A stretch of 35,484 nt of DNA, from positions 1-35,484 of the forward strand of contig PLLR01000113.1 in NCBI GenBank assembly GCA_003141335.1, written 5' to 3'. Numbering within the stretch: position 1 is the stretch's first letter; every line of letters begins with the position of its first letter. Below the pieces are notes generated by a model. It had not been told where the DNA came from, made no database searches, and was given only the letters and a program-made list of their open reading frames with translations. Made by a program: the position numbers and the translations under genes. Below, piece by piece: positions 7,865-13,447 of this stretch. The DNA comes from Methanoregula sp. GTDB taxonomy: Archaea; Halobacteriota; Methanomicrobia; Methanomicrobiales; Methanospirillaceae.

Positions 7865-7878
7865 AAAAAAACAAAAAA
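7865..7878 (-). terminator. T-rich transcription terminator of tRNA-Arg
   Basis: Directly after the tRNA 3' end the minus strand reads tttttt g tttttt. Two T-runs are the usual archaeal termination signal for stable RNA. The facing M42 gene ends at 7812. Confidence 0.55.
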
Positions 7879-7950
7879 CGCCCCGGCCGGGACTCGAACC
7901 CGGGTCAAAAGATCCGCAATCTTCTAGGATGTCCACTACCCCACCGGGAC
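7879..7950 (-). tRNA. tRNA-Arg (anticodon GCG)
   Basis: 72 nt. Acceptor arms GTCCCGG and CCGGGGC pair over 7 bp with one G-U. The anticodon stem GAAGA/TCTTT encloses the loop TTGCGGA, giving anticodon GCG, which reads CGC and CGU. The T arm CCGGG-TTCGAGT-CCCGG is perfect. The discriminator base is G and CCA is not encoded. The variable loop is short (4 nt). No intron is seen. Confidence 0.88.
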
Positions 7951-7970
7951 AAGGAGGTGTCTACTGCCTG

Positions 7971-9044: not shown

Positions 9045-9098
9045 TGCGAGGGATGGGATTCGAACCCAAGAACTCCTGCGAGATCAGGTCCTGAACCT
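9045..9098 (-). pseudogene. 3' half of a disrupted tRNA-Leu gene (left attachment site)
   Basis: Read on the minus strand, this holds the anticodon loop and 3' anticodon-stem strand (TTCAGGA then CCTGA), the long variable arm, the T arm (TTGGG-TTCGAAT-CCCAT), CCCTCGC and discriminator A. The 5' half is missing here and lies at 13367-13406. The two share CCTGAACCT (plus strand), and the rejoined gene is 40 + 54 - 9 = 85 nt, the same length as the intact tRNA-Leu at 13216-13300. Its 5' stem partner TCAGG is in the other half, which ties the two pieces together. Over the last 38 bases it differs from the intact tRNA by one base. Confidence 0.85.
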
Positions 9099-9146: not shown

Positions 9147-10256
9147 ATGGACTATTTGGAAAGGCTGCCGCTCCTGGATGCGGTGAACAGGGAGATCCTA
9201 AAGGGTTACATCCGGCGGCAGGAACTCAAACAGCTGCAGCCGTCAAGCATCTGGGATAAAGTATGGCGGGTCTATACCCTCCTTAAATACGTCGATATGA
9301 AGCCTGCGGGGGATATCCGCAAGGAGGACCTTGAAGATTATATCATCCATCGCCATAAGACAGTGAGCCCTCGGACTCTGCAGGGGGATATGATTGAATT
9401 GCGGATCTTCTTCCGGTTCCTTGACCCGAAGAAAGAGGTCCTCTTTTTCCCGGCTGATGAGAAGATGCAGCGGCCAAAGACCACCTTCCCGGACCCGCTC
9501 ACCCGGGAAGATATCCAGAAGTTAGTCGGTGCCTGCAATAGCATCCGCGATCGCGCCCTCGTGATGTTCCTCTGGGATACCGGCTGCCGGGTGGATGAAG
9601 CACTCTCCCTGAACACTGCTGCAGTCCGGTTCGATAAGTATGGCGGCATGGTGAAGGTATCCGGCAAGACCGGGGACCGTGAGCTCTGGCTGATTGATTG
9701 CATGCCGGACCTGCAGGCATGGATCAATGTTCATCCTGGGAAAGATAAGCCGGATTTCCCGCTGTTCCTGACGTATACCCGGTACGGGTTCGGCTCGCAT
9801 CGCCTGAACGTGCGGACCGTCCAGAACCTCTGTAAGCTGCTGCAGAAACGGGCCGGGGTATCGACACGGGTGCACCCGCATGGGTTCCGGCATGCCCGGG
9901 CGACAGACCGGGCCCGGGAGGGATTCACCGAGATGGAACTCCGGATCATGTTCGGTTGGTCAAAGTCATCGAACATGCCAGCCACCTATATTCACCTTTC
10001 AGGAGCGGATGTCAAAAAGAAGATCCTGCAGAAGGCCGGGCTGGTCGAGCCGGATAAACAGGCGGGAGAAAGGCCACTGGATGCCATCCAGTGCCCGCGC
10101 TGCGAGACACTGAACGCTAATGATTCGATGTATTGCCGTCGCTGTAGCATGGCGCTGACAAAGGAGGCATTGCGGGATCTCGAAACCCTGAAGGATGAAC
10201 GGAACCGGCTCCTGGATGAAATGATTGCGGAACGGAAGAAGGGAAAGATCGATTAG
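9147..10256 (+). CDS. Tyrosine recombinase/integrase with C-terminal zinc ribbon
   Basis: 369 residues. An N-terminal SAM-like core-binding domain covers about residues 1-95, and the catalytic domain runs to about residue 295. The catalytic set is visible: Arg in DTGCRVDEAL, Lys in KVSGKTGDRE, HGFRHARAT (His-x-x-Arg), Trp in MFGWSKS (usual His/Trp site) and the nucleophilic Tyr in ATYIHLS. A C-terminal zinc ribbon (CPRCETL...MYCRRC) and a charged helix of about 35 residues follow. Such proteins cut and rejoin DNA at att sites, and this one lies about 50 bases from the tRNA-Leu core, so it is the likely enzyme that moved the element. ATG 9147 fits the promoter; a TTG at 9126 would add seven residues. 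Confidence 0.88.
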   Translation: MDYLERLPLLDAVNREILKGYIRRQELKQLQPSSIWDKVWRVYTLLKYVDMKPAGDIRKEDLEDYIIHRHKTVSPRTLQGDMIELRIFFRFLDPKKEVLFFPADEKMQRPKTTFPDPLTREDIQKLVGACNSIRDRALVMFLWDTGCRVDEALSLNTAAVRFDKYGGMVKVSGKTGDRELWLIDCMPDLQAWINVHPGKDKPDFPLFLTYTRYGFGSHRLNVRTVQNLCKLLQKRAGVSTRVHPHGFRHARATDRAREGFTEMELRIMFGWSKSSNMPATYIHLSGADVKKKILQKAGLVEPDKQAGERPLDAIQCPRCETLNANDSMYCRRCSMALTKEALRDLETLKDERNRLLDEMIAERKKGKID

Positions 10257-10333: not shown

Positions 10334-10492
10334 ATGGATGATATATTTTTACAGGCAATAAAAGAGGTTTTGTCAGAGGATGAGTTCGGTGCTGTTATTC
10401 TTTCTTCTGCAGCTGCCGCGCCGCATAAATCTGAACAGCCTCTGCCACAAGCGCCGGCTCCTCTCGTAGGGCCTGCCGGATCTGCTCCTTAA
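10334..10492 (+). CDS. Doubtful small protein overlapping the 3' end of the RHH gene
   Basis: 52 residues from ATG 10334. The first half (MDDIFLQAIKEVLSEDEFGA) looks like an ordinary acidic helical protein, while the second half is Ala/Pro-rich and lies antisense to the ribbon-helix-helix gene at 10395-10643. It would be convergent to that gene with about 100 bases of overlap. No ribosome site is clear. It may be a real small protein with an extended tail, or the tail of an old gene overrun by its neighbour. Confidence 0.25.
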   Translation: MDDIFLQAIKEVLSEDEFGAVILSSAAAAPHKSEQPLPQAPAPLVGPAGSAP

Positions 10493-10643
10493 TAAGATCG
10501 GGATTTTTTCGTTTATCTACAAATTCGCGGCAGGCAATGACAAGGATGGATGTCCGGTTCAGATGCATCTCATCCCCGATATCATCTATCTCCTTAAGGA
10601 GATCCAACGATACCCTGAATCCAATATTCTTCTCTTCCATCAT
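10395..10643 (-). CDS. Ribbon-helix-helix (CopG-like) DNA-binding protein
   Basis: 82 residues. The N-terminal half fits a ribbon-helix-helix fold: a beta strand (NIGFRVSLDLLKEID), a helix (LKEIDDIGDEMHL), then NRTSILVIACREFVDKR as the second helix. The C-terminal half is a charged helix that could mediate oligomerisation. The ATG at 10643 is preceded by a GGGGATGG run. A perfect 7-bp inverted repeat at 10651-10671 lies immediately upstream and is the likely operator. A divergent gene starts at 10780, so this protein probably represses both directions, as in small archaeal plasmids and viruses. It is unrelated in length to the two plus-strand RHH-like proteins downstream. Confidence 0.7.
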   Translation of the reverse strand: MMEEKNIGFRVSLDLLKEIDDIGDEMHLNRTSILVIACREFVDKRKNPDLIKEQIRQALREEPALVAEAVQIYAARQLQKKE

Positions 10644-10671: not shown

Positions 10672-10779
10672 TTTTCCGGCGTTAATAAAAGTTCTGCCCG
10701 ACTAACACAGTTAAACCATGTTAAATTAAAAAGGACAATTCTTTTATAGTTGGCACGTATAAATAAACAGTGTTCAACT

Positions 10780-11013
10780 ATGTTTAACAAAGCGCAGGTT
10801 GAGAGGGTGGAGGGCAAACCCCTCGATTCCCTTGGTGGCCGTGTGCCACTGGAATTGCAGGACGAACTCGCTCTCCTCTATGAGCGTGGATATACCCCGA
10901 CGGAAATCATCAAGGAAGGGATCCGGTGCTGCTCTGATAAGGAAGGCGTGATGGTGCGCAGGCGCGAGACCGCGTATGCCCGCCCAATGGGGGAACTGAT
11001 ACATGCCATGTAA
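10780..11013 (+). CDS. Small RHH-like protein, first of an overlapping series
   Basis: 77 residues from ATG 10780, which lies about 34 bases after the AT-rich promoter box. The middle (GGRVPLELQDELALLYERGYTPTEIIKEGIRCC) has the strand-helix-turn-helix pattern of ribbon-helix-helix proteins, with the turn GYTPTEIIKEGI. The next gene has the same turn (GYSDSEIVRQGI), so the two look like tandem paralogs. The C-terminus overlaps the next start by 11 bases. A role as a DNA-binding regulator or copy-control protein of the element is inferred. Confidence 0.6.
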   Translation: MFNKAQVERVEGKPLDSLGGRVPLELQDELALLYERGYTPTEIIKEGIRCCSDKEGVMVRRRETAYARPMGELIHAM

Positions 11014-11158: not shown

Positions 11159-11304
11159 CCGAGACCATCCGGTGCACCGTCAATCAGGCCGCAGTGGACT
11201 GGTATAATGCAAAATACCCCGGATCTGACGACATTGAGCGGTGGAAGGCCGCCGGTGAGATAGTAATCGTTGGAGAAAAAGAGGTCAAAGGGAATGACCG
11301 GTGA
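11155..11304 (+). CDS. 49-residue hypothetical protein
   Basis: The ATG at 11155 forms an ATGA overlap with the preceding stop, and its own stop overlaps the next GTG start (GTGA), so it is coupled on both sides. The sequence contains WYNAKYPGSDDIERWKAAGEI and a charged C-terminus. No family was recognised. Coupling on both sides is the main support for it being real. Confidence 0.5.
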   Translation: MTETIRCTVNQAAVDWYNAKYPGSDDIERWKAAGEIVIVGEKEVKGNDR

Positions 11305-11651
11305 AGAGTTCAACCACATCGTATGGCGTTTTATATACCTGTGTGCTGTACTCTGCGGCAACCGCATCCATACTGGGAGCAATAGCGGCAATGTATAGCA
11401 GTTTTGTCACTTGCCGGAACGTCATCCTGAAATCTGTAGGTACGGGATATGGTGCATATGCATTTAGCGTATCGGGCATCAATCTGATTACCACTACCGT
11501 TGTGACGGGTACCGGAACGGGGATTGTAGTACTCCAAAATGCAATTGCATTAAGGACAACCGTGAATAATCAGGCGACAACTCCTCTTAATCCGGCATCT
11601 GGTCAAAGTACTCCCGCAACATATCCGTGGAATTATTCGTATATATTGTGA
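11301..11651 (+). CDS. Small membrane protein of the element
   Basis: 116 residues from GTG 11301, coupled to the previous stop. A hydrophobic segment (YTCVLYSAATASILGAIAAM) forms a probable N-terminal transmembrane helix. The rest is Thr/Ser/Gly/Val-rich with beta character (TTTVVTGTGTGIVVLQ) and a polar Thr/Pro tail ending in aromatic residues. This is typical of an envelope or virion surface component, but no family match was recognised. The neighbouring phage-tail-like gene makes a structural role plausible. Function unknown. Confidence 0.5.
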   Translation: MKSSTTSYGVLYTCVLYSAATASILGAIAAMYSSFVTCRNVILKSVGTGYGAYAFSVSGINLITTTVVTGTGTGIVVLQNAIALRTTVNNQATTPLNPASGQSTPATYPWNYSYIL

Positions 11652-12315: not shown

Positions 12316-12360
12316 TGCGAGGAGCCGGATTTGAACCGGCGAACCCCTGCGGGAATAGAG
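12316..12360 (-). pseudogene. 3' fragment of a second, different tRNA-Leu-type gene
   Basis: On the minus strand the order is a 3' anticodon-stem strand (CTCTATT), a long variable arm (CCCGCAGGGG), a perfect T arm (GCCGG-TTCAAAT-CCGGC), acceptor TCCTCGC and discriminator A. A long variable arm with A73 points to tRNA-Leu rather than tRNA-Ser (G73 in archaea). No 5' half is present nearby. Like the left fragment, it breaks at the anticodon loop. Nothing else is recognised in 12191-12315. Confidence 0.7.
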
Positions 12361-12402
12361 TAAGGTTTTATCGACTCGGAAAATCCAATTCTTTTTTTGA
12401 TG

Positions 12403-13211
12403 ATGCATAATAAGATCCTCGTTACGGGTGCGACAGGGTTTATAGGATCCAACACAATTCCCCTCCTTAAAAAATTGAACTATGAACCTTATGGGATTTC
12501 AAGAAACGGCTGGATCCCCTGCGACATCCTGAATGACAACGATATCCGTAAAACAATGGAACGAATTAAACCCACCCACCTTCTGCACATAGCATGGGAT
12601 GTCTCGGATGGGTATATGACATCAATCAATAATTTTGATTGGTTAATCCAAAGCCAGATACTAGTAAAATCCTTTGCCGAATGCGGGGGGAAACGGCTAG
12701 TCATTGCCGGTACTGGATGCAAAAACAGTGAAGCATTTTATTGCAGCTGTAAACACCTCTTGAATGAATCCATAAAGACGTATGCGGCACGGGTAGGGCT
12801 GTCCTATGCGTACGGGAAAATATTTTATTTGTACGGCGAGAATGAGAGAGGGAACCGATTAATCCCGGGCATAATAAAATCTCTCTTAAATAAAGAACCG
12901 TTTACTCTACGGCAAAATAATGTGGGGGATTACCTCTATGTGAAAGATGTTGCCAGTGCTCTCGTTGCAATACTGGATTCGGATATTGAGGGTGATGTTG
13001 ATATTGGATCCGGTATTGCGACATCATCAAAGGCAGTCCTGAACGAGATACACGAACTGATCGGAATACCATATATGGATTCAGATGCCCCCCTGGTGTA
13101 ACGTATCTTGCCGATATAACCAGGATAAATAATGAATTGACGTGGTATCCGCGATACACATTGAAACAAGGACTTAAAGAAACGATTGATTGGTGGAAAT
13201 CCAAAAAGTGA
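12403..13211 (+). pseudogene. NAD-dependent sugar epimerase/dehydratase, frameshifted near the C-terminus
   Basis: Extended SDR family. The Rossmann NAD motif ILVTGATGFIGSNT is at the N-terminus, and HIAWDVSDGYM and GYL-like positions of the fold follow. The family Tyr is probably the one in YCSCKH (Y-x-x-x-K pattern at about residue 115). The frame stops at TAA 13099-13101 after SDAPLV. From the six-C run at 13088-13093 an extra C would give SDAPPGVTYLADITRI and continue to a normal end (WYPRYTLKQGLKETIDWWK, stop 13209-13211). This is a single-base loss, a sequencing or assembly error in a homopolymer, or a phase-variable tract. Substrates of such proteins are nucleotide sugars, so a surface glycan role is likely. 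ATG 12403 or 12400; a TTG at 12397 is weaker. No ribosome site is seen. Confidence 0.75.
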
Positions 13212-13215
13212 GAAA

Positions 13216-13300
13216 TGCGAGGGATGGGATTTGAACCCAAGAACTCCTGCGAGACTGGACCCTGAATCCAGCGCCTTTGACCGGGCTTGGCTACCCTCGC
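13216..13300 (-). tRNA. tRNA-Leu (anticodon CAG), complete, inside the element
   Basis: 85 nt. Acceptor GCGAGGG/CCCTCGC, D arm with GCC/GGC, anticodon stem CTGGA/TCCAG around loop TTCAGGG (anticodon CAG), long variable arm, T arm with loop TTCAAAT and discriminator A. It has the same length and same anticodon as the gene broken at the ends of the element, but a different anticodon stem and scattered changes. CCA is not encoded. No intron is visible. It is the only intact tRNA-Leu in the window. Confidence 0.9.
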
Positions 13301-13302
13301 CT

Positions 13303-13335
13303 TTTTATTACAATTTTATTACAATTTTATTACAA
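13303..13335 (-). repeat. Three perfect 11-bp tandem repeats at the tRNA-Leu promoter
   Basis: The plus strand reads ttttattacaa three times without change; on the minus strand each unit is ttgtaataaaa. They occupy positions -3 to -35 relative to the tRNA 5' end, where boxA normally lies. Each unit is TATA-like, so the array may be a triplicated promoter element. Confidence 0.75.
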
Positions 13336-13366
13336 TGCGCTCAGATGCCATGATCAGGCAGGAAAC

Positions 13367-13406
13367 CCTGAACCTGACGCCGTTGACCTGGCTTGGCTAC
13401 CCTCGC
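13367..13406 (-). pseudogene. 5' half of the disrupted tRNA-Leu gene (right attachment site)
   Basis: On the minus strand it reads acceptor GCGAGGG, D arm, 5' anticodon-stem strand TCAGG, then loop TTCAGG, where it meets element DNA. Its stem strand complements CCTGA in the left fragment and not the stem of the intact tRNA at 13216-13300. After the core, element sequence contains a CCTG..CCTGATC run that imitates part of the lost stem. Confidence 0.85.
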
Positions 13407-13447
13407 GCTTGTATACATTATGTATGAAATTACATAAAGATAGGGGA

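Follow-up and report, generated by a model that had tools for sequence, protein, structure and literature searches.

A leucine tRNA carried beside the attachment site of a putative provirus remnant in Methanoregula: probable tRNA-dependent lysogeny in an order of archaea

What becomes of an archaeal cell whose tRNA gene has been broken by an integrated element and is rebuilt at neither end of it? This question is raised by a stretch of DNA from Methanoregula sp. (G000:C69:1-35484; hereafter the window, meaning all 35,484 nt analysed), which belongs to a 2.0-Mb metagenome-assembled genome (MAG) in 125 contigs that is 90% complete. Within the window, an element of ~4.28 kb is bounded by the two parts of a host tRNA-Leu(CAG) gene and carries, just inside its right end, an intact tRNA-Leu(CAG) gene. 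We consider it very likely that this arrangement is an archaeal form of tRNA-dependent lysogeny, the provirus having since decayed.

Two intact tRNAs were identified in the window using ARAGORN: tRNA-Arg(GCG) (7878-7951) and the tRNA-Leu(CAG) at 13216-13300, which was also recognised by Rfam and lies, as the original prediction had it, inside the element limits, between the two host-gene parts. A blast search of the assembly with tRNA-Leu returned partial copies on either side of this intact gene, at 9045-9083 (97%, positions 47-85 of the tRNA) and 13365-13406 (86%, positions 1-42). The two halves have in common a 9-bp core in the anticodon loop (AGGTTCAGG; 9090-9098 and 13367-13375), and when they are joined at this core a full tRNA-Leu(CAG) is called by ARAGORN. 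The intact copy was correctly predicted to have the anticodon of the interrupted gene and yet a distinct sequence, since the anticodon stem reads TCAGG/CCTGA in the joined host gene and CTGGA/TCCAG in the intact copy. Inspection of the junction sequences revealed that neither window junction yields a complete tRNA. This bears directly on classic tDNA integration, in which attP supplies a matching half and the target tRNA gene is thereby made whole at one end of the insert. While the use of a tyrosine integrase and a tRNA target is shared with most archaeal elements (PMC8371274), the cores are short (9 bp in the window and 9-15 bp in most of its relatives), no complete tRNA was seen at any junction examined, and the intact tRNA is a separate, different gene outside the junction; classic integration is thus a vanishingly improbable account of the locus.

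Which of the tRNA genes is the native one can be read from G035, the closest relative by M42 peptidase (96%). The orthologous locus of G035 possesses a single intact tRNA-Leu(CAG), which matches the window halves at 100% identity in its 5' part and 98% in its 3' part. The neighbours are common to both genomes, with an aminotransferase, the M42 peptidase, tRNA-Arg(GCG) and an open reading frame (ORF8118) on one side and an acyl-CoA synthetase remnant and TBP on the other. The window flanks overlap by 10 bp in G035, and no further element sequence is found there. Because this site is empty, we conclude that the halves are the host gene and that the copy at 13216 arrived with the element. The opposite case, in which the copy at 13216 would be the ancestral host gene and the halves old duplicates or pseudogenes unrelated to any insertion, can draw on the resemblance of the intact tRNA to the CAG genes that are native to other genera of the same family (98% to G052). 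It is refuted by the empty site in G035, whose gene matches the copy at 13216 at just 74/85 positions, and is left extremely improbable. In UBA247 (Methanoregula sp.), the closest named relative as judged by the integrase, an element occupies the same site; its integrase is 81% identical and its carried tRNA-Leu(CAG) is of a different type.

A count of tRNA-Leu(CAG) genes revealed no second intact copy in the assembly (a MAG, 90% complete), where the remaining tRNA-Leu copies have the anticodons GAG, TAA and CAA. A tRNA-Leu(TAG) gene was not found in this 90% complete MAG either. Because of the incompleteness of the MAG and the unfound TAG gene, the evidence that the tRNA at 13216 is the sole CAG copy in this genome is strong but not absolute. 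The codon CTG is a common one, accounting for 143 of the 507 leucine codons in 12 window ORFs.

The same arrangement recurs in the relatives of the integrase, which were identified at E<=1e-20 in 121/232 genomes of the order. The closest of these for which upstream DNA is available have, immediately ahead of the integrase, the 3' part of a tRNA-Leu gene that is broken in its anticodon loop. Fifteen elements, spread over four families of the order, could be delimited at both ends, and all 15 have the same layout: a tRNA-Leu 3' part, the integrase, cargo (4-45 kb), an intact tRNA-Leu in the opposite direction, and the 5' part. Carried and broken anticodons match in 14/15, and in the fifteenth (G033) once its ambiguous junction is resolved; there the automatic core finder reads GAG at attL and CAG at attR, and the target was taken as CAG since separate GAG genes exist. 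The reconstructed targets are CAG (the window, UBA247, G067, G156, G162 and G175b), TAA (G095, G175a, G157, G152 and G149a), TAG (G093) and CAA (G059 and G065). The attL of G149a contains a 1-nt deletion, such that the joined gene was not called as Leu by ARAGORN and the stump was used to read the anticodon; the missing base fits the decay of a disused half. Among the cargo, the 45-kb G157 element (L131-L133, G157:C2) encodes a complete Hma defence set (HmaA, HmaB and HmaC) together with other defence-like proteins, and the cargo of the UBA247 element (L119) gave no Pfam match.

The pattern was also sought independently of anticodon among Leu types, by searching the 232 genomes for a tRNA-Leu left half with a second one within ~65-160 bp. 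This search returned 28 pairs in 25/232 genomes, and a reversed-pattern control returned 0. In each of the 28, an incomplete first copy is followed by a complete tRNA of equal anticodon, and the pairs cover all five Leu isoacceptors (CAG, GAG, TAG, TAA and CAA). Two such elements each are present in genomes G149 and G175. The genomes checked, among them the near-complete G093, G095, G067, G033, G157 and G152, yielded no further intact gene with the anticodon concerned, and in these near-complete relatives sole-copy status is firm. We also noted, in two Methanoregula genomes (L077:4610-4793 and L078:8001-8179), a decayed tRNA-Leu 5' stump followed by an intact tRNA-Leu(GAG); these may be fossils in which a viral tRNA has turned into a host gene.

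These data bear on two further explanations. Virus tRNAs are commonly proposed to supply codons or to allow escape from tRNA-cutting defences (PMC10865867), and the carried tRNA might likewise serve lytic growth in the main, its match to the broken gene being secondary. Because codon supply would not predict an anticodon that follows the target, this role is disfavoured and seems very improbable: in each delimited element a tRNA-Leu stands beside attP and its anticodon changes as the target changes, with 28/28 matches across the order. Alternatively, the two halves might be transcribed apart and trans-spliced, as in split tRNAs of the Nanoarchaeum type, in which case the host gene would still work and the carried tRNA would be surplus. 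Both halves are indeed kept nearly intact, and the flanks in G095 and G175a can pair, though they resemble inverted integrase arm sites. However, pairing of the half flanks is not significant in the window or in 12/15 elements, and the halves decay in places, as seen in the G149a attL and in the stumps of L077 and L078, making a split tRNA highly improbable.

A replacement or rescue function for the carried tRNA, as originally predicted, is therefore strongly supported by the equal anticodon, the sole intact copy found, the empty site in G035 and the 28/28 pairs across the order. Neither of the findings named with the prediction as refuting it was obtained, as the assembly revealed no second CAG gene and the copy at 13216 is not the ancestral one. 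The further claim that the tRNA would addict the host to the element was overstated, because integrase-mediated excision should restore the native gene, the cores and halves of which are kept; it would apply only to other routes of loss, which would remove the only copy found.

Carried and native genes differ in a characteristic manner. Across 15 native-carried comparisons (with G033 joined by hand and the missing G149a base filled in), the outer two pairs of the anticodon stem differ at 55/60 positions, the inner three pairs at 10/90 and the rest of the tRNA at 150/1019 (15%). In a control that compared native genes of different hosts, the corresponding values were 125/260 (48%), 100/390 and 580/4418 (13%). 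At least three of the four outer positions differ in 12/14 unique native-carried pairs vs 17/62 native-native pairs (Fisher p=9e-5, uncorrected for relatedness), and the outer 5' stem differs in 26/28 of the order-wide pairs. Furthermore, the tRNA types swap between genomes: the carried tRNA of G033 matches the native gene of UBA247 at 83/85 positions, and the carried tRNA of UBA247 matches the native gene of G033 at 80/85. The simplest reading of these sequences is that the integrase would depend on the outer part of the stem when it acts on its target, and that the rescue gene has escaped it. We regard as evenly poised the fuller proposal, in which selection would have altered the outer two pairs of the stem, where the integrase presumably makes contact, and kept the loop and inner stem, rendering the rescue tRNA immune to its own integrase, so that successive proviruses would put foreign tRNA-Leu genes in place of those of the host and leave viral tRNAs behind as permanent host genes after they decay.

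Related integrases also occur in viruses. A tRNA-Leu lies immediately beside the integrase in three virus genomes: L117 (36 kb) and L118 (38 kb) from IMG/VR, and the circular vir524 (L279; GenBank BK063669.1; host Methanomicrobiales), in the record of which the tRNA-Leu is annotated beside the integrase without explanation. In L117 and L118 the tRNA is a tRNA-Leu(CAG) and the attP core lies between it and the integrase; tail genes are present in L117, and the attP right arm of both matches the G009 provirus, which interrupts the same locus. The window element is probably a decayed provirus remnant, a viral origin that rests partly on these relatives.

Taken together, the comparisons suggest the following course of events. 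The virus integrase would act on a host tRNA-Leu gene at its anticodon loop, recombining this loop with the short core of attP. The missing tRNA half is absent from attP, so the host gene stays broken, in line with the junctions described above. Beside attP the virus carries a complete tRNA-Leu of matching anticodon, and integration would bring it to within 70-160 bp of the 5' stump, behind it and co-directional with it. Where the gap is short, the carried tRNA probably shares the host tRNA promoter. The gap between core and carried tRNA is only 28 bp in G156, where no TATA-like motif was seen by eye; in G157 and G149a, a promoter of its own is possible because the stretch upstream of the carried gene resembles the native upstream stretch. 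On the gene content observed, the carried tRNA would then take over as the only gene for its isoacceptor, a role in expression and decoding that we infer, and the divergence of its outer anticodon stem from the target would probably spare it from the integrase. After integration the virus could decay while the tRNA would have to stay, which may be why only 4.3 kb is left in the window.

The features of the locus are listed in Table 1. Within the element, the epimerase-like gene (12397-13209) appears to have a C-terminal frameshift, with 13082-13209 read by eye, and is odd cargo to find beside a rescue tRNA. Between attR and the carried tRNA, at 13301-13340, TTTTATTACAA is repeated three times in tandem and is perhaps promoter-like. 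The broken tRNA piece at 12316-12358 was considered as the missing half of the host gene and rejected, being of a different tRNA type, with the true 3' half at 9045. A clean, site-specific later integration into this older carried tRNA was likewise unsupported, as its breakpoint is without the TTCAGGG core. Because the piece is 95% identical to the tRNA of the UBA247 element, a rescue tRNA of another type was probably carried by the element earlier than, or alongside, the present one.

Table 1. Coordinates of the integrated element and its attachment sites in the window
Feature	Coordinates	Strand	Evidence
attL: host tRNA-Leu(CAG) 3' part, cut in anticodon loop	9045..9098	-	core 9090-9098; blast match to tRNA-Leu positions 33-87; 98% to G035 3' part
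Tyrosine integrase, 369 aa, frame intact	9147..10256	+	PF00589 E=7e-20; candidate catalytic R148, H245, R248, Y281
Small ORF within element	10395..10643	-	no Pfam match
Small ORF within element	10750..11013	+	no Pfam match
ORF within element	11301..11651	+	no Pfam match
Phage tail assembly chaperone-like protein, putative tailed-virus residue	11666..12190	+	Pfam PF16778 Phage_tail_APC E=3e-15
Broken 3' fragment of older carried tRNA-Leu, UBA247-element type	12316..12358	-	95% over 43 nt to L119:15602-15686; 77% to tRNA at 13216
NAD-dependent epimerase-like gene	12397..13101	+	PF01370 E=2.7e-24
Intact carried replacement tRNA-Leu(CAG)	13216..13300	-	ARAGORN; Rfam RF00005 49.4 bits
Right end of element: attP right arm and leader, from broken 5' part to carried tRNA	13301..13366	.	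no tRNA 3' part, gene not rebuilt
attR: host tRNA-Leu(CAG) 5' part	13367..13406	-	core 13367-13375; 100% to 5' part in UBA247 and in intact G035 gene
Proposed host tRNA promoter region	13407..13447	-	CTTTATGTAAT ~36 nt upstream of broken 5' part; similar pattern upstream in L119, G033, G035

Several observations weigh against tRNA-dependent lysogeny as set out here. The only virion-type gene in the window element is the one tail-type protein. The tree of the integrases needs only 5 target changes, so the comparisons are not fully independent, and most genomes in the set are MAGs. A second pair in G033, a complete genome (GAG; L272:9956-10145, G033:C1 ~1979 kb), consists of copies whose 5' anticodon stems are identical, and the 30 kb of sequence covered there revealed neither an integrase nor a 3' part. 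In addition, the carried tRNA of the UBA247 element (L119) keeps the full AGGTTCAGGG core, so that a changed core would not by itself account for escape from the integrase, and immunity by that means was rejected on this ground. Finally, the CAG and CAA tRNAs may be dispensable if U34 isoacceptors of tRNA-Leu read CUG and UUG, and by general decoding rules loss of the gene is likelier to be lethal for GAG, TAG and TAA than for CAG or CAA.

Tyrosine recombinases of the SSV, pNOB8 and pTN3 types, reviewed in PMC8371274, also target tRNA genes in archaea, the anticodon loop included, but their integration restores an uninterrupted tRNA at the junction, whereas the present elements leave the target tRNA broken and a separate gene takes its place. 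In Caldiarchaeum, a disrupted tRNA-Thr(GGU) locus similarly contains a tRNA fragment near a full tRNA and an insert that codes for a recombinase, but was read as intron gain and the scattering of a tRNA fragment rather than as rescue (Sugahara 2012, PMC3293823). The closest parallel is bacterial. In mycobacteriophages, tRNA-dependent lysogeny has been defined, tested and proven by deletion (Guerrero-Bustamante & Hatfull 2024, PMC10865867), and the actinobacteriophages described there (Fionnbharth, cluster L, Gaia and others) appear to use the same mechanism as the window element. They differ in that the hosts here are archaeal, all targets seen are tRNA-Leu genes, of all five isoacceptors, and the carried copy shows the anticodon-stem divergence. 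Furthermore, the carried tRNA here always lies beside attP, co-directional with the stump, whereas the Fionnbharth tRNA, which overlaps gene 37 at the 3' end of that gene, has been proven to have a promoter of its own. The Lactobacillus johnsonii prophage Lj965, as cited in PMC10865867, likewise leaves its target tRNA unrebuilt and codes for the cognate tRNA; in that account it is a single, bacterial case, whereas here an integrase family is spread over an order.

The suggestion that the arrangement might be new can therefore be kept only in part: the principle is known from mycobacteriophages, and no archaeal case of tRNA-dependent lysogeny was found in the literature searched, which covered few subscription papers. 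PMC10865867 asks how widespread the phenomenon is and, by text search, does not mention archaea; in a study of Sinorhizobium, one group of prophages is reported to lack it (PMC12429752). As far as we have found, what is new relative to known tRNA-dependent lysogeny would be the archaeal domain, the restriction to a single amino-acid family with all its isoacceptors, the fixed placement and orientation of the tRNA behind the host promoter, and the apparent escape from the integrase.

If this reading is true, it would represent the first tRNA-dependent lysogeny in archaea, as far as found, and a widespread one, with pairs in 25/232 genomes of a methanogen order by the strict pattern. It would offer a reason for archaeal viruses to carry a single tRNA beside attP, and the divergence of the stem would lead to a direct biochemical prediction as to how target and rescue gene are distinguished by the integrase. 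It would also reveal a route by which viruses may replace single-copy tRNA genes and would explain why remnants of proviruses persist in these genomes.
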